From positions 1-24,125 of IMG/VR virus record IMGVR_UViG_3300049489_001005: 24,125 nucleotides of DNA; one strand, given 5' to 3'. The notes beneath the pieces were generated by a model that had not been told where the DNA came from, did no database searches, and saw nothing but the letters and a program-made list of their open reading frames with translations. The translations under genes and the position numbers were made by a program. The number at the start of each line of letters is the position of its first letter. Position 1 is the stretch's first letter. Of the stretch, positions 4,367 through 22,244 are shown piece after piece. The DNA is from a virus.

Positions 4367-5995
4367 ATGGCAATCGTTAAAAAACATGAAGAGGCTTTTT
4401 TGGTTTTACTAAATCTAGTTAATACCGCATCTAGACCAATCAAAGCAACTGAAATAGTTAAAGTTATTTGCCGTAATTGTAGCTTAGTATTCGACACAAG
4501 CTTCAATAATTTATGTCGAATACACAAAAGAACGCAAAATGGGTACGTGTGCCCTAAATGTGCTTTGTTGCTGGTAGATACACACAAAAAACATGAAAAA
4601 ACAAAAAAAACTAATTTACAAAAATATGGCGTTGAGTATGTCTCAAAACTAGACACATGCAAGCAAAAAATGCAAAAAACAGTGCAAGAAAAGTATGGAG
4701 TTAGGCACATTCAACAGCTTAGTGAAGTAAAAGAAAAAGCCAAACAAACAAATTTAGAGAAATACGGAGCAGAATACCCACAGCAAAACAAAAAAGTTAG
4801 AGCAAAAACCAAACAAACCAATCTACAAAAATATGGCGTTGAGTATGTTTCACAGTCTGAGGAAACCAAAAACAAAGTCAAGCAAACCTTTCTTGAGAGA
4901 TATGGTTTTGATAACCCAAATAAATCTGTTGTTTTTCGAGAAAAAACCAAACAAACTGTATTAAAAAAGTACGGTGTTGAGCATATATCGCAGCTAAAAG
5001 CTTCTCAGGATAAGGTTAAAGAAACTGTTTTCAATAAGTATGGTGTAGAATATGCTAGTCAATCTTCTGAAATCAAAGAGAAAATCAAGAAAACTATCTT
5101 TAATAAGTATGGCACAGAGTATTATTTTCAGTCCGAAGATTTTAAAGAAAAATCAAACGCAAATCAGTGGTTTACATCTAAAGCAGAACTAGAGATTAAA
5201 GCATATATAGAGTCTTTTGGATTAACAACAACCAAGAAAAGACCTGACCATCAAGAACTTGATATTGTTATTGAAGATAAGAAAATAGCTATTGAGTACA
5301 ATGGTTTATATTGGCACTCAGAAGCACGCAGAAATTACATGTATCATTTTGAGAAAACTCAAACAGCTAATAAGCATGGATATAGACTTATCCATGTATT
5401 CGAACATGAGTGGAGAGACCGAAAAGATCAAGTAAAATCATACCTTAGATCCGCTTTAGGTATGAATACTGTTAAAATTTTCGCCAGGAAGTGTGAGTTA
5501 GTAATAACCCAAAAAGACAAACAAGTACTTGATTTTATTGATAAACATCATATACAAGGTAAGGCTAAGTCTATTCTTGAGGTATCTTTGTATCATGAGA
5601 ACCAACTTGTGGCTGTTGCTTCGTTTGGTAGGCATCATAGAGATGTCGGTAAAATTGTACTAAACAGGTTTGTTTGTCTATCTGGCACCACTATATCAGG
5701 CGGTCTATCCAGGATATCTAAAGCTGCATCACTGTATTTCAAGCAGGATATTATCTCTTGGTGTGACCTAAGATGGTCAGAAGGTAATGGATACTTGAAA
5801 GCTGGGTGGGAACAAGAAGATATACTAAAACCTGACTACTTTTACACAGACCGGTATAAATATATTTCTAAGCAATCCAGGAAAAAGTCTAATGTTAATA
5901 CACCTTTAGGTTTAACAGAACATGAGCATGCGCTGCAGGATGGATTATTTAGAGTGTATGATTGCGGTAAGATTAGATTTATCTATAGGTATTGA
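4367..5995 (+). CDS. Free-standing Vsr-like (EDxHD-type) homing endonuclease
   Basis: This encodes 542 residues. The N-terminus has a four-Cys zinc module (C35, C38, C62, C65). Eight tandem repeats of 23 residues follow (about 81-264), each built on a TxLxKYGVEYxSQ core; these are probably DNA-reading elements. Residues about 265-370 form a Vsr/PD-(D/E)XK-like nuclease: Glu in AELEIKAYIES, Asp in ELDIVIE, then AIEYNGLYWHSE and GYRLIHVFEHEW. The C-terminal 170 residues (KIFARKCELV to SRKKSN, with RHHRDVGKIVLNRFVC and SGGLSRI) match the domain commonly fused to phage homing nucleases. It nicks or cuts a phage target to spread its own gene. It sits between two fibre genes, has a poor Shine-Dalgarno, lies behind a terminator and is visibly more AT-rich than its neighbours, consistent with recent mobility. 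Confidence 0.85.
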   Translation: MAIVKKHEEAFLVLLNLVNTASRPIKATEIVKVICRNCSLVFDTSFNNLCRIHKRTQNGYVCPKCALLLVDTHKKHEKTKKTNLQKYGVEYVSKLDTCKQKMQKTVQEKYGVRHIQQLSEVKEKAKQTNLEKYGAEYPQQNKKVRAKTKQTNLQKYGVEYVSQSEETKNKVKQTFLERYGFDNPNKSVVFREKTKQTVLKKYGVEHISQLKASQDKVKETVFNKYGVEYASQSSEIKEKIKKTIFNKYGTEYYFQSEDFKEKSNANQWFTSKAELEIKAYIESFGLTTTKKRPDHQELDIVIEDKKIAIEYNGLYWHSEARRNYMYHFEKTQTANKHGYRLIHVFEHEWRDRKDQVKSYLRSALGMNTVKIFARKCELVITQKDKQVLDFIDKHHIQGKAKSILEVSLYHENQLVAVASFGRHHRDVGKIVLNRFVCLSGTTISGGLSRISKAASLYFKQDIISWCDLRWSEGNGYLKAGWEQEDILKPDYFYTDRYKYISKQSRKKSNVNTPLGLTEHEHALQDGLFRVYDCGKIRFIYRY

Positions 5996-6021
5996 CTGAA
6001 CATAATCTAAGATGGTAAAAT
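5992..6021 (+). promoter_or_regulatory. Sigma70-like promoter with extended -10
   Basis: TTGACT (5992-5997) lies 18 nt before TAAAAT (6016-6021), which is preceded by TGG, an extended -10. The -35 overlaps the end of the homing endonuclease gene. The predicted start, near 6028, lies inside the hairpin that covers the next gene's Shine-Dalgarno. Confidence 0.6.
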
Positions 6022-8169: not shown

Positions 8170-8949
8170 ATGACAAATAAAAATACAATAGGATCTTTCA
8201 CCACATTAGGTCCAGTTTCATTTCTTAGCGACACGCAAACACTTCTTGGTAGTGTAACAAATTTAGGTGCTTGGACATTGGGAGCATCTAGTGGAACACA
8301 AGAGCATATTTTAAATGGTGGACTACTGCTCAAAGGTACTTCACCTACCACTACAAGAATGTCCTTACCACTAACTAGCACAGACCAATCTAATATCCCG
8401 AATAATGCAAGTAACTCTTATGGAATTTATATTGCCAACGGATTAACTAGTACCCCTGTAAATAATAGTACATTTAGGGGTATAGAGGTGGCAAGCCATA
8501 GCTCACAAACAGCTTTGCGTATGCATAAACCTGGCGTTATAGAATATAATATGGGAATTAATAGTAGTAACCTACTGGAATTGGGCAATAGCGACCCTAG
8601 TCTTGGGGGTACAAGCAGAGGTAGTCTGGATGGTGGAGGAAATTTATCTGTAAGCTCTGTTAGTGCTGCTGGTGGATTTTACAGCTTTGTAGGGTCAATA
8701 TCTAGTTTAGGTAATGGTGCTACCGCTGGTTTTGGGCTTACTTTAAATAATGGAGAGGTATGGCAAATTTCAGCGACTGACACCAGTGGCGATTATGTTC
8801 TCGGAATAGCTACAAGATGCGGAAATTTTAACTATATGAATACGATTGGTGGCGTAAATTTAAGCTTAAATGCTGCGACTTCGCCGACAATATCCAATAC
8901 AAGCGGAGGCACTAGAACAATTAATGTGACCTGTATAAGATTACAGTAA
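8170..8949 (+). CDS. Fibre-associated beta-rich protein
   Basis: This encodes 259 residues from ATG 8170, with aagagg upstream, 18 nt after the S74 fibre gene. It lacks the LGGGTTV anchor and the S74 chaperone but begins with a LGSVTNLGAWTLG unit like those in the preceding fibre shaft. The rest is Gly/Ser/Asn-rich, ending in a compact C-terminal domain (SSLGNGATAGFGLTLNNGEVWQIS to TINVTCIRLQ). That tail looks like a small tip domain of the kind seen at fibre ends. It may be a separate tip subunit, or a shaft-plus-tip module split from the preceding gene. The role is inferred from position and composition. Confidence 0.65.
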   Translation: MTNKNTIGSFTTLGPVSFLSDTQTLLGSVTNLGAWTLGASSGTQEHILNGGLLLKGTSPTTTRMSLPLTSTDQSNIPNNASNSYGIYIANGLTSTPVNNSTFRGIEVASHSSQTALRMHKPGVIEYNMGINSSNLLELGNSDPSLGGTSRGSLDGGGNLSVSSVSAAGGFYSFVGSISSLGNGATAGFGLTLNNGEVWQISATDTSGDYVLGIATRCGNFNYMNTIGGVNLSLNAATSPTISNTSGGTRTINVTCIRLQ

Positions 8950-8963
8950 TATATTTTATTGGT

Positions 8964-8969
8964 TATAAT
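8964..8969 (+). promoter_or_regulatory. TATAAT box ahead of the 8988 gene
   Basis: A perfect TATAAT follows ttggt, 18 nt before ATG 8988. A start near 8976 would leave a very short leader containing the aaaaagga Shine-Dalgarno. No -35 is evident. Confidence 0.35.
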
Positions 8970-8987
8970 AAATAAAAAAGGAAATAT

Positions 8988-10916
8988 ATGTCAAGTTCAG
9001 CATTTACACCATCCGTATTAACTATTGCAGCTTCTGGTTCATCTGGTTCGGGTTCAGGTGAAATAAACACAATTACAAATAGCTCTGCTGTAATAGATGC
9101 TTCTGGTTGGACTAATGCCACTAGAGTTACTTCTAACTCCCCACTTAACCCAGTAATATCAACGGCCTTTGCCATCGCCAATACTGCTGCCTCTGAATCT
9201 TCAACTTCAGGTGGATACACAACCTTCACGTTACCAACAGGACTTCAGAATAAAAAGCTTAAGGTAGAATTCTATTTCACTACTCCCGCTACTGATGTTT
9301 ACGCAGTGAGTGTTTACAAAAGCACTACAAGAGTACCTCTATCTACCGATAGTTCTTCTGTAACTACTCTACCAGCAAGTACCACAGGTAAATTTACAGC
9401 CTACTTTGATACTGACACTACTAGCGGTTGGACAGTTAGTATTACCAGAACAAGTGGAAGTACAGGTACTTGCTACATAACCCAAGTAATAGTCGGCCCT
9501 GGAATACAGTCACAGGGAGCGGTTGTAGGGGAGTGGCAGAGTTATACGCCTACCTTATCAACTAACCCCTGGGGAACAGGCGCTGCTCTAAACTTTGCTA
9601 AATACAGGCGAGTTGGTAGCTCATTAGAGATAAAAGGCAGGGCAATAACTGGAACAGGAACTGGAGCTAACTTACTTGTTATTCCATTACCTAGTGGACT
9701 TAACATTACTCACTCTAATACTGACGCCTTTTTAGTTGGCAAAGGTATGGACACAGTTAGCTCCACAGGGGTGGTAATTATAGCTGAAACTGGAGCGTCA
9801 ACTACTAATCTTTACTTTGGACTTGACTCCTCTATTAATGCATTTACAAAAAGGAATGCGAACGATTTTGGGGATGCTCAAACCTTATCCTGGAACGCTG
9901 TGATTGAAATCGCCGAATGGGCTGGCAGTGGCACAGTCAATTTGGCACAGAATGATGTGGAGTGGGCCTCAAATGATGGTAGTGGTGGTACCTCGGCTGG
10001 TGCTACCTATAACACTGGAATGGTTTATGGGCCTACCGGCAGTACTTTTGTGGGGGTAGCTTCAACAACAGCTAACTCTGTAACTTCTTACTTGGTCAGG
10101 TTTCAAACACCAAGACAAATCAGCGATGTAATTACTATAGAAGTTCAGGCTAATAGTGGAGAGTGGGTACCATTAGGACAGGTATCCTACACCGCTGTGA
10201 GGGGATACCAAAACCAAGGGGATTCCTATTACGGGATTGGTTGGCATACTAATGGAGTTTCATCTGCCACAGACATTTATGTCCGATTTGGCAATAAAGG
10301 CTCTAGTCCCAGTGGAACCAATGGTGCGGCATTTGCTGCTAATGGGGTTGCTTGGGCGGCCGGTACTGAACGTTGGCGAGTCCGCAAGTCCTCCGCTGGT
10401 GCCGCTGTTGGGTTTGGGATAGCTGATACAACGTCAAATGGATTGGTGCCATCTAATACATACTCTCAAGGAACACAGACATGGGACCTTCAGGGGGGAC
10501 TAAAACTACCAACCTCAGGAGGTACTAAAGCTACCTTAAACTTCTACGAAGAATTATCTCAGGCTAGTTCTGTATTTACTTTTAGTGGAAGTGGGTCAAA
10601 TACGGCCTCTGTAACTCTTAGAATATATAGAACAGGTAAGACAGTAACAATTAAGTGGCCAGCCATTTCATTTACAAGTTCAAACGGCAACGTACAACTA
10701 ACGTCCAATCTAATCCCATCTAGATTTAGGCCCGCTGAGCAGCGACAGTGGATATTTATTCAATATACAACAGGAGGCAGCCCAGCTGCTGCACCTGGAA
10801 TGGTAGCCTTAGATACAGGCGGTAATTTGCAGTTTTATAAAGATGGTACAGCGGCATCGTTTAACTCGGGCACTTTAATTATACAGCCAGGAGATATAAC
10901 GTTTATTGTGGATTAA
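8988..10916 (+). CDS. Large tail-fibre or receptor-binding-type protein
   Basis: This encodes 642 residues from ATG 8988, with aaaaagga 4-5 nt upstream. It opens with a short hydrophobic/Ser segment and a Ser-Gly linker (ASGSSGSGSGEI). Next come a beta-sandwich-like region resembling carbohydrate-binding folds (KLKVEFYFTTPATDVYAVSVY, about residues 85-165), a VGEWQSYTPTLS segment often seen at the start of phage fibre-tip domains (about 180-310), a central region (VEWASNDGSGGT to ADTTSNGLVP) and a C-terminal beta domain from GGLKLPTSGGTKATLNFYEE to the end. There is no LGGGTTV anchor. By protein class and position it is an adsorption-apparatus protein; fold assignments are by eye only. Confidence 0.65.
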   Translation: MSSSAFTPSVLTIAASGSSGSGSGEINTITNSSAVIDASGWTNATRVTSNSPLNPVISTAFAIANTAASESSTSGGYTTFTLPTGLQNKKLKVEFYFTTPATDVYAVSVYKSTTRVPLSTDSSSVTTLPASTTGKFTAYFDTDTTSGWTVSITRTSGSTGTCYITQVIVGPGIQSQGAVVGEWQSYTPTLSTNPWGTGAALNFAKYRRVGSSLEIKGRAITGTGTGANLLVIPLPSGLNITHSNTDAFLVGKGMDTVSSTGVVIIAETGASTTNLYFGLDSSINAFTKRNANDFGDAQTLSWNAVIEIAEWAGSGTVNLAQNDVEWASNDGSGGTSAGATYNTGMVYGPTGSTFVGVASTTANSVTSYLVRFQTPRQISDVITIEVQANSGEWVPLGQVSYTAVRGYQNQGDSYYGIGWHTNGVSSATDIYVRFGNKGSSPSGTNGAAFAANGVAWAAGTERWRVRKSSAGAAVGFGIADTTSNGLVPSNTYSQGTQTWDLQGGLKLPTSGGTKATLNFYEELSQASSVFTFSGSGSNTASVTLRIYRTGKTVTIKWPAISFTSSNGNVQLTSNLIPSRFRPAEQRQWIFIQYTTGGSPAAAPGMVALDTGGNLQFYKDGTAASFNSGTLIIQPGDITFIVD

Positions 10917-10991
10917 ATCTAACTAACGCAAACAAAGGACTGCCTAACCCCATAAACTGCGTCAGGTGTGGAAACAAGAGAAGGAACGATT

Positions 10992-11225
10992 ATGTCAGAT
11001 AGCCTAAATGAACACAAAAGCCCGCCTAGCAGCACTGGAATCTTAATGAATAACCAACTAAAAGAATTAGCAGAAGAACTTGATAAAAGGCACCTCAATC
11101 TTTCCCAAAAGGAAATGCTTGAGGTGTTAAGTAAGCCATTTACTCCAAGCCCTAAAGCAAAGATTAACCTAAAAGAGTGGCGTAAGAACCCTAACCCACG
11201 CCTGCATGGAACATACTTTGTTTGA
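10992..11225 (+). CDS. Small charged protein, unknown
   Basis: This encodes 77 residues from ATG 10992, with aagga at 10981-10985; an in-frame ATG at 10968 lacks a comparable site. The sequence is hydrophilic with a central amphipathic helix (MNNQLKELAEELDKRHLNLSQ) and a Pro-rich C-terminus ending NPNPRLHGTYFV. The last 29 nt of coding sequence are duplicated 48 nt downstream in the same frame but beyond two adjacent stops (tga-taa). It is the last gene of the rightward fibre block. No family is recognised; a small structural or regulatory role is possible. Confidence 0.65.
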   Translation: MSDSLNEHKSPPSSTGILMNNQLKELAEELDKRHLNLSQKEMLEVLSKPFTPSPKAKINLKEWRKNPNPRLHGTYFV

Positions 11226-11264
11226 TAAAATCTTTACCCTAACCCACACCCGCAGGGAACATAC
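11188..11264 (+). repeat. 29-nt imperfect direct repeat, 48-nt period
   Basis: Copies at 11188-11216 and 11236-11264 match at 26 of 29 positions (core accctaacccac, then ggaacatac). The 48-nt period keeps the frame: copy 1 encodes NPRLHGTY and copy 2, past stops at 11223-11228, reads NPHPQGTY and stays open to a stop at 11283-11285. Confidence 0.8.
11223..11231 (+). promoter_or_regulatory. Extended -10 element facing the intergenic gap
   Basis: TGATAAAAT matches the TGn-TAAAAT form seen at 6013-6021 and 13742-13750. The TGA is also the stop codon of the preceding gene. No -35 is clear. It would transcribe rightward into the 290-bp gap, toward the 3' end of the convergent minor head gene, with no evident ORF. 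Confidence 0.35.
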
Positions 11265-11269
11265 AAGAC

Positions 11270-11516: not shown

Positions 11517-12590
11517 TCAGCTTTTCCTGACTAGTCCACCAAAATCATCCACTTCATACCCAGGCGGAACATAAACTGTGGCGCATCTACAGCGGTGATG
11601 ATTTGGGCTAACACTCGGTAACCATTCAGCTTTTTTACGTCTGAAGTTATATCCACTTGGCTTCAGGTCATTCAATTTATAGTAAATACGCCTACCGCTC
11701 GAATCCTTCGAAACAGATCTACAGAAGGAACAAACCCTCTCATCGATCATCTCAATATTAGCCACCCTCATAGAATCATCTTCCCTGCCGAAAACCTCAA
11801 GCATACCTTGATGCGTTGCGGCTGCGGACGCCATATTGATGTTACCGCCAACCGTATTTTCCCACTTTTTCTCAAACATATTAGCGGTTTCGGTAATCTC
11901 TGCCATCAGATTGTTGAGTTTGAGTATGTCCGACACTCCATAAACCGCATCCTGAACAGCCTCAGCACTATCCTCAGTCTTCCCGACAAGATTATGAGCC
12001 TCCTGATGCACCTCATTCATTGCCTTAAAGTTATGCTCATCGGCCACACCATCGATAGATGACTCAATCTTAAGCCTGAACTCACCAAGACTCTGATCAA
12101 TAAACTTCTCAAGCTTTTGAGTAATTTCCAGCAGGGACTCTTTGATTATTAGCTTGGACATCTCCTCGGGTTTTTGTCCAAAAATATCAACATAATGCCG
12201 CTCCATGGCATCCAAATTGTCAAAATAGGCAGCAGGTATAACCCCAGGAATGATATTTCCAAATAGTTTCAGCTCATTAGCAGCACTAACAGCGTCTTTG
12301 CCTGCATATTTACCTAGCAAGATCCACTTAAGTGCCAGCAAATGCTTATCAATCACCTTATTGACTGAGTCGCTTAAAGCAATTCGCACCAAAGGAATAT
12401 CACCGGTCCACCCACCATCTAATGATTTCGCCAGTTTTTCTTTAGAAAACAGTTTTTTCAACTGCTGCTTCATGGATAGCACAACCAGACCATAGCCAAT
12501 CATGGCCTGCTTTTCGATCCTCATGAGAAACTTGGTGTGCTTGTATTGCGCCAGCTCTTTAAGTTTTATTTTGTTTTTTGGTTTTGCCAC
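11517..12590 (-). CDS. Minor head protein, SPP1 gp7 / Mu gpF family
   Basis: This encodes 357 residues from GTG 12590, preceded by agaggg with 6 nt spacing. A longer frame to 12677 has no better site. The N-terminus is Lys-rich and helical and the centre is long and helical. The C-terminus carries the family signature: RVCSFCRSVSKDSSGRRIYY followed by SPNHHRCRCATVYVPPGY, the paired Cys and His/Cys pattern of the phage Mu F-like domain. In SPP1 and Mu these proteins bind the portal or sit inside the head and act in head assembly or DNA ejection. Its start overlaps the sigma-region-4-like gene by 32 nt. It is the last gene of the leftward cluster beginning near 13696, ending at the convergent gap. 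No terminator with a U-tract is visible after it. Confidence 0.8.
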   Translation of the reverse strand: MAKPKNKIKLKELAQYKHTKFLMRIEKQAMIGYGLVVLSMKQQLKKLFSKEKLAKSLDGGWTGDIPLVRIALSDSVNKVIDKHLLALKWILLGKYAGKDAVSAANELKLFGNIIPGVIPAAYFDNLDAMERHYVDIFGQKPEEMSKLIIKESLLEITQKLEKFIDQSLGEFRLKIESSIDGVADEHNFKAMNEVHQEAHNLVGKTEDSAEAVQDAVYGVSDILKLNNLMAEITETANMFEKKWENTVGGNINMASAAATHQGMLEVFGREDDSMRVANIEMIDERVCSFCRSVSKDSSGRRIYYKLNDLKPSGYNFRRKKAEWLPSVSPNHHRCRCATVYVPPGYEVDDFGGLVRKS

Positions 12591-13134
12591 GGCTAACCCT
12601 CTTAGGTTGATCTTTCTTGTGCGTATACAGGCCATACAAGTCAACTTTAGTCCCAGACCTGTGCAGAGGCATTCCAACCCCTATACGCAGCTTTTTCTTC
12701 TTTTTGATGCTTTCTGGATCTGGCTCTTCAACATGGGTAATCGGTATCTTAATTTGGGAATCCGGGATGGCATTATTGGCTCTAGAAGAGGAGTTCATTT
12801 TCTCATAAATAGCAGACACAAAAGCCTGTACTTCCTTGGAATTAATATTGTTTTTGAGTTTTTCAATTGCCGACAAGTATATTTTCTGTACTTGTGACTG
12901 CTCTATTCCAAGCAAAAGAGCTATATCTCTGTCAGACATGCCGTCATCGATGTCATTAGCAAGCACCCAGAAACAGTACGAGTGCATCTCGGAGTTGATA
13001 CCCCAGTGACACCCAACTGGCCTGCTTCCACGCTTTTCGGTTTCCTGCCACTCAAGACGCTTTAAAGCCTCTGGGCATGCCTCGGTAGGCATAGAGGTGC
13101 GTTTAAGTGGGCATGCCTCACAGAATCTTTTCAC
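12559..13134 (-). CDS. Cys-cluster protein with sigma-region-4-like helix-turn-helix
   Basis: This encodes 191 residues. The start GTG overlaps the upstream stop (GTGA). The N-terminus has C5-x2-C8-x11-C20 and C42, with a further Cys at 54, a plausible zinc or Fe-S site. Residues about 63-95 (MSDRDIALLLGIEQSQVQKIYL) form a helix-turn-helix of the type in sigma70 region 4 or LuxR/sigma-like regulators. A Lys-rich linker (five Lys near 145) and a basic C-terminus follow. There is no sigma region 2, so it is not a full sigma factor. It is likely a DNA-binding regulator or transcription accessory, possibly for late phage promoters; that role is inference. It is encoded between small helical proteins and the minor head protein, an unusual place for a regulator. 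Confidence 0.6.
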   Translation of the reverse strand: MKRFCEACPLKRTSMPTEACPEALKRLEWQETEKRGSRPVGCHWGINSEMHSYCFWVLANDIDDGMSDRDIALLLGIEQSQVQKIYLSAIEKLKNNINSKEVQAFVSAIYEKMNSSSRANNAIPDSQIKIPITHVEEPDPESIKKKKKLRIGVGMPLHRSGTKVDLYGLYTHKKDQPKRVSRGKTKKQNKT

Positions 13135-13382
13135 TTTGGCTGTCCTTCTTCCTGTATTTTCTGCAACTTAGGTCCAAGCTCTGGGTCTTTTTTGGCCAAA
13201 AACGACACATACTGCTCTAAGAGCGAGATCCGGTTATTGAAGCTGCTCAGGGTCAGTAAGATATCATTCATCTTGTCTGCCATAGCGTCCAAATTCTTAA
13301 TAATCAGGTCTTCCATAGGGGAAGCTGCACTCTCAGCATCGATCAAGCCAAGGTCTTCTAGATTAGGTTTCTGCTCTGACAT
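13131..13382 (-). CDS. Small acidic coiled-coil protein, unknown
   Basis: This encodes 83 residues from ATG 13382, with aaaggag 6-7 nt upstream. It overlaps the preceding gene's 3' end by 20 nt. The N-terminus is acidic (EDLGLIDAESAASPMEDL). The middle is a heptad-like helix (LDAMADKMNDILLTLSSF) and the tail is charged (KKDPELGPKLQKIQEE). This composition suggests an oligomeric accessory or adaptor. No family is recognised; being in a head-gene cluster suggests a morphogenesis factor. Confidence 0.65.
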   Translation of the reverse strand: MSEQKPNLEDLGLIDAESAASPMEDLIIKNLDAMADKMNDILLTLSSFNNRISLLEQYVSFLAKKDPELGPKLQKIQEEGQPK

Positions 13383-13680
13383 CTGGAATCTCCTTTAAAA
13401 GCATCAACAAGCTCTTTGTACTTGTTGGGAAGGTTTCTGCGTTTAGGTTAATATTGAGTTTAAGGTAAGCGAGCAAAGAGTACAAGATAAAGTGGTACAT
13501 TTCTTCGTCATTACCGATAGACTGAAACACTTCATCTAAAGCCCCGGTCACCTGATCGCCAACATAAAGAGCCAACATGCTCATAAGCATGTCTAATTTG
13601 GGTATATCCTGTTGATCCGGTGGGATAGGGTATATTTTCTTAAGTTTGTTAAACCATATTTCTTGCTGTAATTTCAGCAT
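13363..13680 (-). CDS. Small helical protein, unknown
   Basis: This encodes 105 residues from ATG 13680, chosen because aggag lies 8 nt upstream and because a promoter (13731-13703) would start transcription near 13696, inside the longer reading frame. The protein is almost all helical with many Leu/Ile residues (IPKLDMLMSMLALYVGDQVTGALDEVF, then YSLLAYLKLNINL). No transmembrane segment is clear. It is the first gene of the leftward cluster ending with the minor head protein, so it may be an assembly accessory; no family is recognised. Confidence 0.65.
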   Translation of the reverse strand: MLKLQQEIWFNKLKKIYPIPPDQQDIPKLDMLMSMLALYVGDQVTGALDEVFQSIGNDEEMYHFILYSLLAYLKLNINLNAETFPTSTKSLLMLLKEIPDVRAET

Positions 13681-13702
13681 ATTGTTGTCTCCTACGGTTA
13701 TA

Positions 13703-13731
13703 AGTATCTCAAAATACTCAGCTACTGTCAA
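13703..13731 (-). promoter_or_regulatory. Sigma70-like promoter for the leftward minor-head cluster
   Basis: On the - strand TTGACA (13731-13726) is a perfect -35 and GATACT (13708-13703) is a 4/6 -10, 17 nt apart. The predicted start near 13696 lies just ahead of the Shine-Dalgarno for ATG 13680. It diverges from the promoter of the phoH-like gene. Confidence 0.6.
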
Positions 13732-13741
13732 CAAACTCAGT

Positions 13742-13786: not shown

Positions 13787-14584
13787 ATGCACAAAAACCA
13801 CAATGTTTTTCATGAGTTAGATTGGAATGCTTGGTGGAGTCAGAAATACATTAACAATATCTACGGTTTACCTCAAAACGCATTTGTCACTTTCCAGGCG
13901 GATACAGCTACCGTACACGGAATTGTTCAAGGAAATAAGATAGTTCCATTGTTACACTACAGTCCGTGTGGCATTTCACCTAAAAACGCAGAACAGCAAT
14001 ATGCGTTAAATATCCTCAAAAATCCGCACATAGCACTGAAGATACTGAATGGTTCTTCAGGATCAGGCAAAACGCTCCTGGCGTGCGCTCACGCTATGCA
14101 AACCCACAATCAAACCAACAAAAAGATCGTTATTGCCAAAAGCCTTACCCCTGTAGGGCGTGAGATTGGTTTCTTAAAGGGTGATATGAATGCCAAGGTT
14201 ATGCCGTGGCTTGGTCCGTTCATGGACAACTTTATGAAGTGTGGCTACTCGCCTGTAGATATCGAGACCATGATTGCAGAGGGGCAAATCGAGATTACTC
14301 CGATCACGTTTATTCAAGGTAGATCTATCAGTAATGCAGTAATCATTATCGATGAGGTTCAGAATCTCGACATGAACACAATCAAGCAGGTAATCACCAG
14401 AGCAGCTGATAATACCGAAGTTATTCTGTTAGGTGACCCTAGTCAGAAGTTTGAATACCGAAACCGAGACAACACTATAGAGATCCTTACAGCCAAAGCA
14501 TATGGATCTAGTATTGTCGGTGTCGCTGAACTCAAGCAAAGCGTCAGATCACCGTTGGCGAGCTGGGCTGTTGAGAATCTTTAG
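13787..14584 (+). CDS. phoH: PhoH-like P-loop ATPase
   Basis: This encodes 265 residues from ATG 13787, with agga upstream. It has Walker A GSSGSGKT (89-96), a TPVGREIGFLKGD segment (121-133) typical of PhoH proteins, Walker B IIIDE (186-190), the motif LLGDPSQ (214-220) and a C-terminal SVRSPLA arginine motif. PhoH-like proteins are common in lytic phages and belong to the superfamily 1 helicase-like ATPases; the exact phage role is unsettled (RNA metabolism or phosphate stress are proposed). It is the only + strand gene within the leftward head block, with its own promoter. Its last 41 nt overlap the 3' end of the convergent membrane-protein gene, suggesting insertion or inversion. Confidence 0.9.
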   Translation: MHKNHNVFHELDWNAWWSQKYINNIYGLPQNAFVTFQADTATVHGIVQGNKIVPLLHYSPCGISPKNAEQQYALNILKNPHIALKILNGSSGSGKTLLACAHAMQTHNQTNKKIVIAKSLTPVGREIGFLKGDMNAKVMPWLGPFMDNFMKCGYSPVDIETMIAEGQIEITPITFIQGRSISNAVIIIDEVQNLDMNTIKQVITRAADNTEVILLGDPSQKFEYRNRDNTIEILTAKAYGSSIVGVAELKQSVRSPLASWAVENL

Positions 14585-14973: not shown

Positions 14974-16989
14974 TTAAGTGTCTTTATTGAAATCCATCCA
15001 CTCACCTAAGTAATTGCTTAGTGATTTCTTTAATTTGCGTCTTTCTTGATACTCATCAGACAGTGATTTTTCCACTTCTTCGTCAGAACCTTCTTGTTGA
15101 GGTTCCGGTTGGGCTTCTTGTTGTGGCTGGCCTTGTGCAGGTACCCCCTGCTGAGCTTGTTGTTGTTCCATTTGCATCTGTTGAGCGATCTGCTGAGTCT
15201 GTACCTCAGACTGCTCAAGCTGCAGCTGAGCCTGTTCTTGTTGTTGTTTGAGGGGAGTTACCCTCAACTGCTGGTAAGCCTGGTTCAAGTTAGGGTCAAT
15301 GATAAAGTCGTACTCAGGTCTCTTGGAGGCATTTTCTTCACCAAAGAACATCTCAAGAAACATGCCGTACTTCATGTACCGGACCACGTTTTGGTGCCAG
15401 ACTGGGTTTAGCGGAACATCTCCACCATAAGGAACAGGGTTATTCTTCTCAGAATCAGACCAAAGACTACTAAGTGTAGCTGTGGTCTGGACTTCAGCTT
15501 GCTGCCTTTGTATTGCTGAGTCACGAGTATCTTCACCAACACCAACATAAGTCAATCGATACAGCTCTTTGGCTTCAGGAAAGTTCTCGTAAATGATATC
15601 ATTCACGCCATCAAACACTACATCAAGAAGCATTCGAAGGCCGGTTTCCTCACCACGAATAATCTCTTCTTGTTTGTTGGCTTGGTTCAAACCACCTTGG
15701 CCAATCGATAGGTTACCGTAACCCATCTCTTGAGGGGAAATCTGAAATGCTGAGCAAAGGGCTCGAACAATGTGCTCTTCTAGCTGTAAGAAGCCCATAT
15801 CTTGGGGAGCCAAACTAAGTGGAACAAAGTTGACTTTAAATGGACCGCTAAGAATTGGAGTAGCGGCAGAGTTATCGTTACGTAACAGGTAGTTATGGAA
15901 GTCTCTACGGATCTGGTCCATATCCTCTGGGCCTAAGTCACTACTAGCATCGCCAGCAGTCTCAAGGCTGATAATTCCTTTGGTAGCTAATCCTTTAACA
16001 AACTGGTTACGCAGATAACCAAGGGTTTGTTGGTGGATAAAAATCATGTAAATAGCTAATTCGATTGGGGATAACGGATAACCGTTCAAATCCCAGTAAG
16101 CCTGCTTCTGGAAGTACCAGATCCTGATATCATCTTCGGTCCATACGTTGATATTCTGGCCTTCAATACGCTGCACGTAGTACTGAGGTTTTTGGTCTTC
16201 GTGTAGGTTATTCAACGCATCAGCATCGATCTTAGACGCAGGGGAAACCTCTTCACGCACCCCAAGATGCAGGTCTTGTTCTGGGTCGCCAGTATAGATG
16301 GTTTCGATTGCTAGTGGCCTGAAAAGAACAGGCAATCCAGAATCATCCCTGAATATCTGAGAGCCGCATCGACCAAAAGTAAGCAAGTTCCTTATCTGAG
16401 CAGCCACAAACTCCGGGAATGAGCACTTCTTGAAGGTTGGATCCATGCCTGAAAAGACACTATCAAGAAGCTCTTTGTCGTTATTACCGCATGTTTGCAC
16501 CCAGCGCATAATAGAGTGCATTTGCAGTTTTCTGGTGTTTTGGTGCCGCTTATATTGATCCAAGTCATCAAAATCATCTTGCTTAAGTGGATCTATCTCA
16601 GCAATTCTACAGCCTTTATCGTACTTTGACTCAGATCGTCGGCTAATAATAGTAGCTTGAGCGGTTCTTTTGCTAATGATTGCTGAAATATAAGGATCTA
16701 ACTGAGCCAGCTCTTTTTGCTCATAATCAGAAATCCGTTTATGGCCCTTAGTCTCGATACCATTAGCTGAGCGATAAAAGTCACGAGTACTAAATGCAAT
16801 TTTAGACTTGTCGTACTTTTTTGCAATATCGGTTTGCACAATCTGAGGTTGAACTGACTTTCCAAGAATCGTTGAAATATCACCGGTTATGTTTGTAAGA
16901 TTATAGGTGTCACCAATATCACCATCTCCACCGACAGAGAAGTTTATACGTTTTTTGGTATTTGGCTTTTGCTCAATATTATCGGTCAT
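14974..16989 (-). CDS. Portal protein
   Basis: This encodes 671 residues. ATG 16989 directly follows the TAA of the preceding gene. Portal features include an N-terminal wing region, KELAQLDPYISAIISKR (the DPxVxxxI-type start of portals), LLTFGRCGSQIFRD with FRPLAIETI, a stretch around YMIFIHQQTLGYLRNQFVKGLATKG, and LCSAFQISPQEMGYGNLSIGQGG, the region typical of HK97/SPP1-class portals. The C-terminus is unusually Gln-rich (about 585-640, QQQEQAQLQLEQSEVQTQQI), then acidic and basic. It forms the dodecameric ring that joins head and tail and docks the terminase. The gene lies downstream of terL in the same direction with a transcription terminator and two genes between them. At 671 residues it is longer than many portals, mainly because of the tail. 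Confidence 0.9.
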   Translation of the reverse strand: MTDNIEQKPNTKKRINFSVGGDGDIGDTYNLTNITGDISTILGKSVQPQIVQTDIAKKYDKSKIAFSTRDFYRSANGIETKGHKRISDYEQKELAQLDPYISAIISKRTAQATIISRRSESKYDKGCRIAEIDPLKQDDFDDLDQYKRHQNTRKLQMHSIMRWVQTCGNNDKELLDSVFSGMDPTFKKCSFPEFVAAQIRNLLTFGRCGSQIFRDDSGLPVLFRPLAIETIYTGDPEQDLHLGVREEVSPASKIDADALNNLHEDQKPQYYVQRIEGQNINVWTEDDIRIWYFQKQAYWDLNGYPLSPIELAIYMIFIHQQTLGYLRNQFVKGLATKGIISLETAGDASSDLGPEDMDQIRRDFHNYLLRNDNSAATPILSGPFKVNFVPLSLAPQDMGFLQLEEHIVRALCSAFQISPQEMGYGNLSIGQGGLNQANKQEEIIRGEETGLRMLLDVVFDGVNDIIYENFPEAKELYRLTYVGVGEDTRDSAIQRQQAEVQTTATLSSLWSDSEKNNPVPYGGDVPLNPVWHQNVVRYMKYGMFLEMFFGEENASKRPEYDFIIDPNLNQAYQQLRVTPLKQQQEQAQLQLEQSEVQTQQIAQQMQMEQQQAQQGVPAQGQPQQEAQPEPQQEGSDEEVEKSLSDEYQERRKLKKSLSNYLGEWMDFNKDT

Positions 16990-18213: not shown

Positions 18214-18258
18214 ACACAAAGACCCAGCAATAATTTTATCACTGTCAGGTCTTTGTGT
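18214..18258 (-). terminator. Terminator between lipoprotein and beta-rich genes
   Basis: Bases 18214-18224 (acacaaagacc) pair perfectly with 18248-18258 (ggtctttgtgt) around a 23-nt loop. On the - strand five U follow the stem, giving an intrinsic terminator 20 nt after the lipoprotein stop. On the + strand a short T-run (18262-18266) also follows, so it may act both ways. Confidence 0.7.
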
Positions 18259-18277
18259 CAATTTTTAAGCAAATCAA

Positions 18278-21647: not shown

Positions 21648-22244
21648 TCAGTCCTCATCCAATTCGGCTATCATCTCCGCTCGCTTAGGATCTTCTGGTA
21701 ATTTGGGAGGCTCTTTGGTCTCACTCCCTTGATTAATTTGCACGTTCTGAGCATGCACCACGGTAGTAGGTTTATCGGGTGGAGGAGCGGCACCATTAAC
21801 GCTTGATACCAGATTAATAAGCTTCTCAAGAGATCCCTGGGATGAGGGTATCAAAGCACAATCCTTTGCTTGACGCTTCCCAGCGATAACTTCACCTAAC
21901 TCTTTTTGGTAAGAAACAAAAGTAGCTATAAGTACCGAATTTACAAGCTCTTTTTGCAAGAACAGTGGCATGTTGGTAACATTACCTTGGGTGATCAATA
22001 TTCTTGCTTTAGTGGCCCATTTGTAGTTAATGGCTGTAACCATAATTACATCTTTTGGCCAGTTGGTTTTAGCAGCAATAGCATCGATATCGTACCCGCT
22101 AGCATAGAGCAGGAATAGTCCTTGCTCCTTGTCAGGCGATAATGGAGCTAAACCTTGTTTGCCATTAATTGACAACAAACGCTGAACCTCGGTCTTTGAT
22201 AGACCAAGGTCATTTTCTTGAATCAATGTCTTAAGATCACTCAT
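21648..22244 (-). CDS. Probable terminase small subunit
   Basis: This encodes 198 residues. Its start overlaps the preceding gene by 8 nt, so it is probably coupled. Residues about 36-80 (DKEQGLFLLYASGYDIDAIAAKTNW) form a helix-turn-helix of the kind that recognises packaging sites. A helical middle follows (LQKELVNSVLIATFVSYQKE), then a Pro-rich, acidic tail (AAPPPDKP, KLPEDPKRAEMIAELDED) of the type that contacts TerL. The position directly before terL supports the call. Small terminases diverge strongly, so the evidence is fold-like pattern and position. Confidence 0.65.
   Translation of the reverse strand: MSDLKTLIQENDLGLSKTEVQRLLSINGKQGLAPLSPDKEQGLFLLYASGYDIDAIAAKTNWPKDVIMVTAINYKWATKARILITQGNVTNMPLFLQKELVNSVLIATFVSYQKELGEVIAGKRQAKDCALIPSSQGSLEKLINLVSSVNGAAPPPDKPTTVVHAQNVQINQGSETKEPPKLPEDPKRAEMIAELDED

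Follow-up and report, generated by a model that had tools for sequence, protein, structure and literature searches.

A conserved four-cysteine protein with a sigma-region-4-like helix-turn-helix encoded among phage head genes

Introduction

The RinA and Ltr proteins of Staphylococcus phages are small late regulators that activate the genes for packaging and for the head (PMC13123087). The late co-activator gp33 of phage T4 is a small protein that binds the β flap of RNA polymerase as region 4 of sigma factors does (PMC7892883). Here, we describe a 191-residue protein, designated Cys-HTH, in which four conserved cysteines precede a helix-turn-helix (HTH) resembling region 4.2 of sigma factors. 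It is encoded on the minus strand, at positions 12559 to 13134, of a 24,125-base virus contig from IMG/VR (the window, from the start of which all coordinates are counted). We tentatively propose that Cys-HTH is a small metal-stabilised, region-4-like phage transcription co-factor for head genes; a role in transcription, already suggested when the DNA was read without database searches (the sequence-only reading), is still the best prediction of its function.

The likeness to RinA and Ltr, with which PBSX Xpf and ArpU are grouped, would be that of small phage proteins acting on head genes, this being the role proposed here for Cys-HTH. The genes of the RinA, ArpU, and Xpf regulators are located directly upstream from the late promoter and terminase genes, whereas the Cys-HTH gene is located downstream from the TerL and portal genes, and we know of no Cys module in RinA or Ltr. 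No RinA or ArpU model was present among the NCBIfam matches listed for Cys-HTH members, and model NF005385 ('positive control sigma-like factor') was touched by one of 17 members, weakly (E 0.11). T4 gp33 is structurally unrelated to region 4 and acts together with gp55 and the sliding clamp, in contrast to the region-4-like Cys-HTH. Region 4 of the sigma-70 family itself (PF04545 / PF08281, TIGR02937) shares with Cys-HTH an HTH matching the 4.2 part and a local fold match; Cys-HTH differs by the lack of region 2 and by a four-Cys module in place of the N-terminal half. The WhiB-like proteins of Actinobacteria also link four cysteines to sigma region 4, except that they bind region 4 whereas Cys-HTH, found on phage contigs, contains a region-4-like domain. 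Identity with WhiB-like proteins was rejected since profile searches returned no WhiB match and since the x11, 4–30, x11 spacing of the cysteines differs from that of WhiB. No model of Pfam, NCBIfam, or PHROGs covers the four-Cys and HTH core.

Results

A family of 24 members on phage contigs

Single-protein searches of phage records and IMG/VR produced no match, none of the named phages searched by tblastn holds Cys-HTH, the genome of Myxococcus phage Mx1 did not match the family, and a TerL scan of IMG/VR yielded no relatives. The portal protein (14974–16989, minus strand; PF04860, E 1.3e-14) served as the query of a search for relatives that did not involve the Cys motif. It led to L002 (L-numbers designate the loci or contigs of relatives found in the searches), which has the gene order of the window and a 38% identical copy of Cys-HTH. 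A profile built from these two sequences recovered no new members. Most members were supplied by two degenerate DNA patterns run on IMG/VR, the first for C-x-W-[YF]-I-x7-C-F-W and the second a relaxed form of it; most matches were chance frames, which were filtered out by a hidden Markov model. The first pattern gave 65 matches in bacterial and archaeal species genomes, with no family member among them. Searching with another pattern, based on the tail motif, retrieved five long-form contigs, all previously found, and phage match H40 was rejected because its translation shows no Cys-HTH gene. The portal-alignment search added seven Cys-HTH genes (L154, L161, L162, L165, L166, L167, and L168). 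No copy was found within 2.5–3.2 kb after the portal gene in L163 and L170, where it may sit further off or be absent; in L158 the gene is about 7 kb from the portal gene. Together, the family comprises the window protein and 23 relatives, each on a phage contig. In a tree of the core, L017, L046, L132, and L146 grouped firmly (100/99), the remainder being partly unresolved.

Four cysteines probably form one metal site

The family core consists of C-x11-C, a loop, and C-x11-C leading directly into the HTH, and the window protein fits this definition. Its N-terminal module (residues 1–56; 12967–13134, minus strand) displays C8-x11-C20, the loop, and C42-x11-C54, with W44 and F55-W56. In the 24-member alignment, C8 and C54 were present in all members and C20 and C42 in 23 each, with Pro and aromatic neighbours. 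The C42–C54 spacing was x11 in all members and the C8–C20 spacing x11 in most (3–12 overall), whereas the C20–C42 loop ranged from 4 to 30 residues. For members found by pattern, this conservation is partly built in, since C42, W44, and C54 were fixed by the first patterns. The unbiased test is provided by the portal-alignment search, which is independent of the Cys motif: in the window, L002, and the seven portal-found members, all four cysteines were present in 8 of 9. The L162 member (8522–9097, plus strand) is a natural form in which C20 and C42 are both gone. Constant ligand pairs, a free loop, and the joint loss of C20 and C42 fit a shared metal site. Thus, C8, C20, C42, and C54 probably form one site, for which zinc is the most likely metal and an Fe-S cluster is possible. 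The cluster initially proposed (C5, C8, C20, and C42) was correct for three residues; C5 is a cysteine in only 5 of 24 members, and the invariant C54 had been omitted. A fold search of the PDB returned no match to the Cys module.

A conserved neighbour of the short Cys-HTH form (L146:437–928, L046:6709–7185, L132:3–365, and L017:7899–8381) contains CxVCG and CxxCF-like Cys pairs and is possibly a metal protein.

The helix-turn-helix resembles sigma region 4.2

The region-4.2-like domain (residues 57–96; 12847–12966, minus strand) has predicted helices at residues 55–61, 68–75, and 79–95, the HTH proper spanning residues 68–95. Its matches to sigma region 4 were weak but consistent. Residues 64–96 matched the sigma70-ECF model TIGR02937 (E 8.5e-4), as did 6 of 17 members, the best single-sequence profile match being at E ~7e-4. 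A 12-member family profile compared to PDB sequences recovered mostly sigma region 4.2, at the right position (best E 0.0035). Among the contigs of 17 relatives, six showed a Pfam Sigma70_r4 match exactly at the Cys-HTH gene, and the HTH aligned with the 4.2 part of PF04545 (about positions 17–50) with scores below the curated cut-offs. The HTH noted in the sequence-only reading was retained in the AlphaFold model (predicted local distance difference test of ~88–93 over residues 41–90). Fold matches in the PDB were weak overall, with local matches to sigma region 4 (3n97, 0.9–1.0 Å over 31 residues; 1ku3) at poor E-values. Comparison of the short member L036 to BFVD gave whole-length matches to A0A6J5KXK5 (E 2.5e-5, prob 1.00, TM-score 0.72) and A0A6J7WTI0, an uncharacterised protein (E 1.2e-5, prob 1.00, TM-score 0.81). 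Judged by fold alone, these two proteins of uncultured Caudovirales phages are very likely members of the family; for the former, the modelled likeness agrees with its automatic UniProt name, 'RNA polymerase sigma-70 region 4'.

Profile searches revealed no match to region 2 in Cys-HTH or its relatives. Thus, as judged from its domains, Cys-HTH is not a sigma factor, in agreement with the sequence-only reading, in which the fusion of a region-4-like HTH to a Cys cluster was taken to be no standard sigma factor. The only PF04542 match over the cut-off among 18 records was in a different gene of L132's contig, which encodes a sigma factor containing both region 2 and region 4 in addition to Cys-HTH, indicating that Cys-HTH is not simply the phage's sigma.

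The tail (residues 97–191; 12562–12846, minus strand) is Lys-rich in the window phage, as previously noticed, with a net charge of +12 after residue 96. This feature does not extend to the family: most relatives carry a tail of neutral or acidic character, several members are nearly tail-less, and short relatives stop soon after the HTH. The motif GMPLHRSGTKVDLYGLY (GMPLHRxxxKxDLYGLY; residues 154–170) is restricted to the long-form lineage.

Promoter-like sites in the window and in relatives

Recurring TGn-TAAAAT elements had been considered to make a dedicated factor plausible. TGNTAAAAT (TGnTAAAAT) does recur in the window (5 sites versus 1.9 expected), although 5 of 100 shuffles reach 5 and the site at 11223 overlaps the stop codon of 10968–11225, with no same-strand gene directly downstream. 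The sites at 5992–6021 and 18261–18233 are full extended sigma-70-type promoter sites with TTGACT or TTGACA −35 boxes. A third promoter-like site of this type, in front of the operon of the Cys-HTH gene itself (13703–13731, minus strand; TTGACA-17-TGA-GATACT), has 10 of 12 matches plus the TG and is a consensus match only. Three such sites in the window compare to 0.48 expected, a number reached in 2 of 60 simulations, and 19 related loci contained 13 versus ~2.3 expected, one site being counted twice (overlapping loci or near-copies). In several relatives, TTGACN and TGn boxes are located just upstream from the gene that precedes the portal gene. Consensus −35 boxes and recurrence in relatives imply that a dedicated factor for TGn-TAAAAT is not required. 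The promoter argument for such a factor was therefore rejected, and these sites look like promoters served by ordinary sigma-70 holoenzyme.

The promoter preceding the 17202–18242 gene is nested within an intrinsic-terminator-like stem: at 18214–18261 (minus strand), a strong hairpin (z −5.9) with T's after it carries the −10 box, TAAAAT, in its loop. The same layout was observed, with differing stem sequences, in L156 (z −5.0) and L002 (z −2.1), and was not clear in L157, L161, L162, L163, and L164. At 11190–11265 (plus strand), an imperfect direct repeat, CCCTAACCCACGCCTGCATGGAACATAC / CCCTAACCCACACCCGCAGGGAACATAC, read by eye, surrounds the stop codon of 10968–11225.

Operon and neighbourhood

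The predicted open reading frame was confirmed as part of an operon of overlapping genes on the minus strand, in the order 13363–13734 (true start probably internal), 13131–13382, Cys-HTH, and a minor head or head-morphogenesis gene (11517–12590; start 12590 probable). The GTG start of the Cys-HTH gene is credible because it overlaps with the stop codon of the small gene 13131–13382 (GTGA) and because the gene overlaps at its 3' end with the minor head gene. A counterpart of 13131–13382 is kept upstream from Cys-HTH in L002, L019/L031, L040, L045, L154, and L162. The location within a head-gene cluster was also borne out, the surrounding genes encoding the portal protein, small head-region proteins, and the minor head protein, which weakly matched head-morphogenesis families (phrog_24918, E 4.3e-4). 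TerL was recognised via Mx1 (27%, E 2e-39), the nearest named phage for both TerL and portal.

The portal block is separated from the Cys-HTH operon by a PhoH-like gene (13787–14584, plus strand), which is divergent from this operon and is missing at the corresponding place in L002. A large homing-endonuclease-like gene was found at 4367–5995 (plus strand; phrog_3339, E 1.6e-107), and a 41% relative of it adjoins the portal gene in L045.

Discussion

In the mechanism that we propose for a transcription co-factor, the site formed by C8, C20, C42, and C54 would fold the N-terminal half of Cys-HTH and lead straight into the first helix of the region-4.2-like HTH. Lacking region 2, the protein could not serve alone as a sigma factor. 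It would dock on the host RNA polymerase, at the β flap or in the place of region 4, and alternatively or additionally may contact DNA near −35. We infer that docking, in whichever direction it acted, would modulate how strongly sigma-70-type extended −10 promoters drive the head operon. This proposal is favoured by sigma region 4 being the dominant match for family profiles and single members, and by constancy of the Cys quartet despite variation of the loop, as expected for a metal site.

Several observations weigh against it. The HTH is not basic, with a mean net charge of about −1 in the family and −3 in the window protein, in contrast to +2 for region 4.2 of E. coli sigma70. In sigma70, Arg and Glu residues read the −35 box, and the corresponding positions are not conserved in the family. 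The promoters before head genes own good −35 boxes and an extra factor is unneeded there. Finally, a position before head genes in most members equally fits a role in assembly. Since a near-neutral or acidic HTH is unlike a typical DNA-binding HTH, contact with RNA polymerase is at least as likely as contact with DNA.

The main rival, which we consider somewhat unlikely, is a head-assembly or packaging accessory, Cys-HTH being a metal-folded partner of the minor head protein or prohead protease (a chaperone, or a packaged or ejected protein). In the window lineage, the Cys-HTH gene overlaps the minor head gene, which follows it in 12 of 12 distinct contigs with both. Short forms are encoded immediately upstream from what we take, from reading the sequence, to be the prohead protease in L023, L036, L039, L044, L138, and L152. 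The conserved C-terminal motif of the long lineage would also suit such a role, except that neither the protease-linked members nor those of a third setting possess it. In this setting (L017, L046, L132, and L146), the Cys-HTH gene adjoins a presumed ribonucleotide reductase or SbcC gene, both again named by reading, away from head genes. Conservation of the Cys and HTH core in all three settings is easier to explain for a trans-acting regulator than for a structural part of the head. A packaging role is further weakened by a separate small-terminase candidate (21648–22244), which is kept next to TerL in relatives and in Mx1; for this reason, identity of Cys-HTH with the small terminase was rejected.

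It is quite improbable that Cys-HTH is an anti-host takeover factor, a mimic that would oust sigma region 4 from RNA polymerase and reduce host transcription. A region-4-like domain devoid of region 2, with an HTH devoid of conserved DNA-reading residues, could act in this manner, and T4 gp33, which clamps the flap tip helix like region 4, represses transcription when alone (PMC7892883). However, most members have the gene in a late head-gene setting, and takeover would be expected earlier. The phage promoters, with their −35 boxes, also seem to depend on sigma-70, so that ousting region 4 would harm the phage as well.

A redox or metal sensor, in which an Fe-S or Zn switch would alter HTH activity, is very improbable. 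The four nearly invariant cysteines with their Pro and aromatic neighbours would suit it, and in WhiB-like proteins a [4Fe-4S] cluster is linked with sigma region 4. Against this, the L162 member persists without two of the four ligands, and the differences from WhiB noted above apply. Finally, chance association of cysteines with an HTH-like stretch, conceivable from the weak single-sequence matches, was refuted by the 24-member alignment, with its constant quartet and C42–C54 spacing, and by the confident AlphaFold model.

A broader view of the co-factor proposal, which we regard as unlikely, is that these proteins form an undescribed and widespread class of regulators in which a metal-holding four-Cys module replaces the rest of sigma and a free region-4-like domain reprograms the host RNA polymerase, possibly in response to metal or redox state, thereby timing head-gene expression. 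The corrected set of residues for mutation is C8, C20, C42, and C54. Phage mimics and replacements of sigma region 4 have repeatedly revealed ways of redirecting the host RNA polymerase, and the recurrence of the four-Cys and region-4-like design across distinct genome settings makes Cys-HTH a compact and testable candidate.
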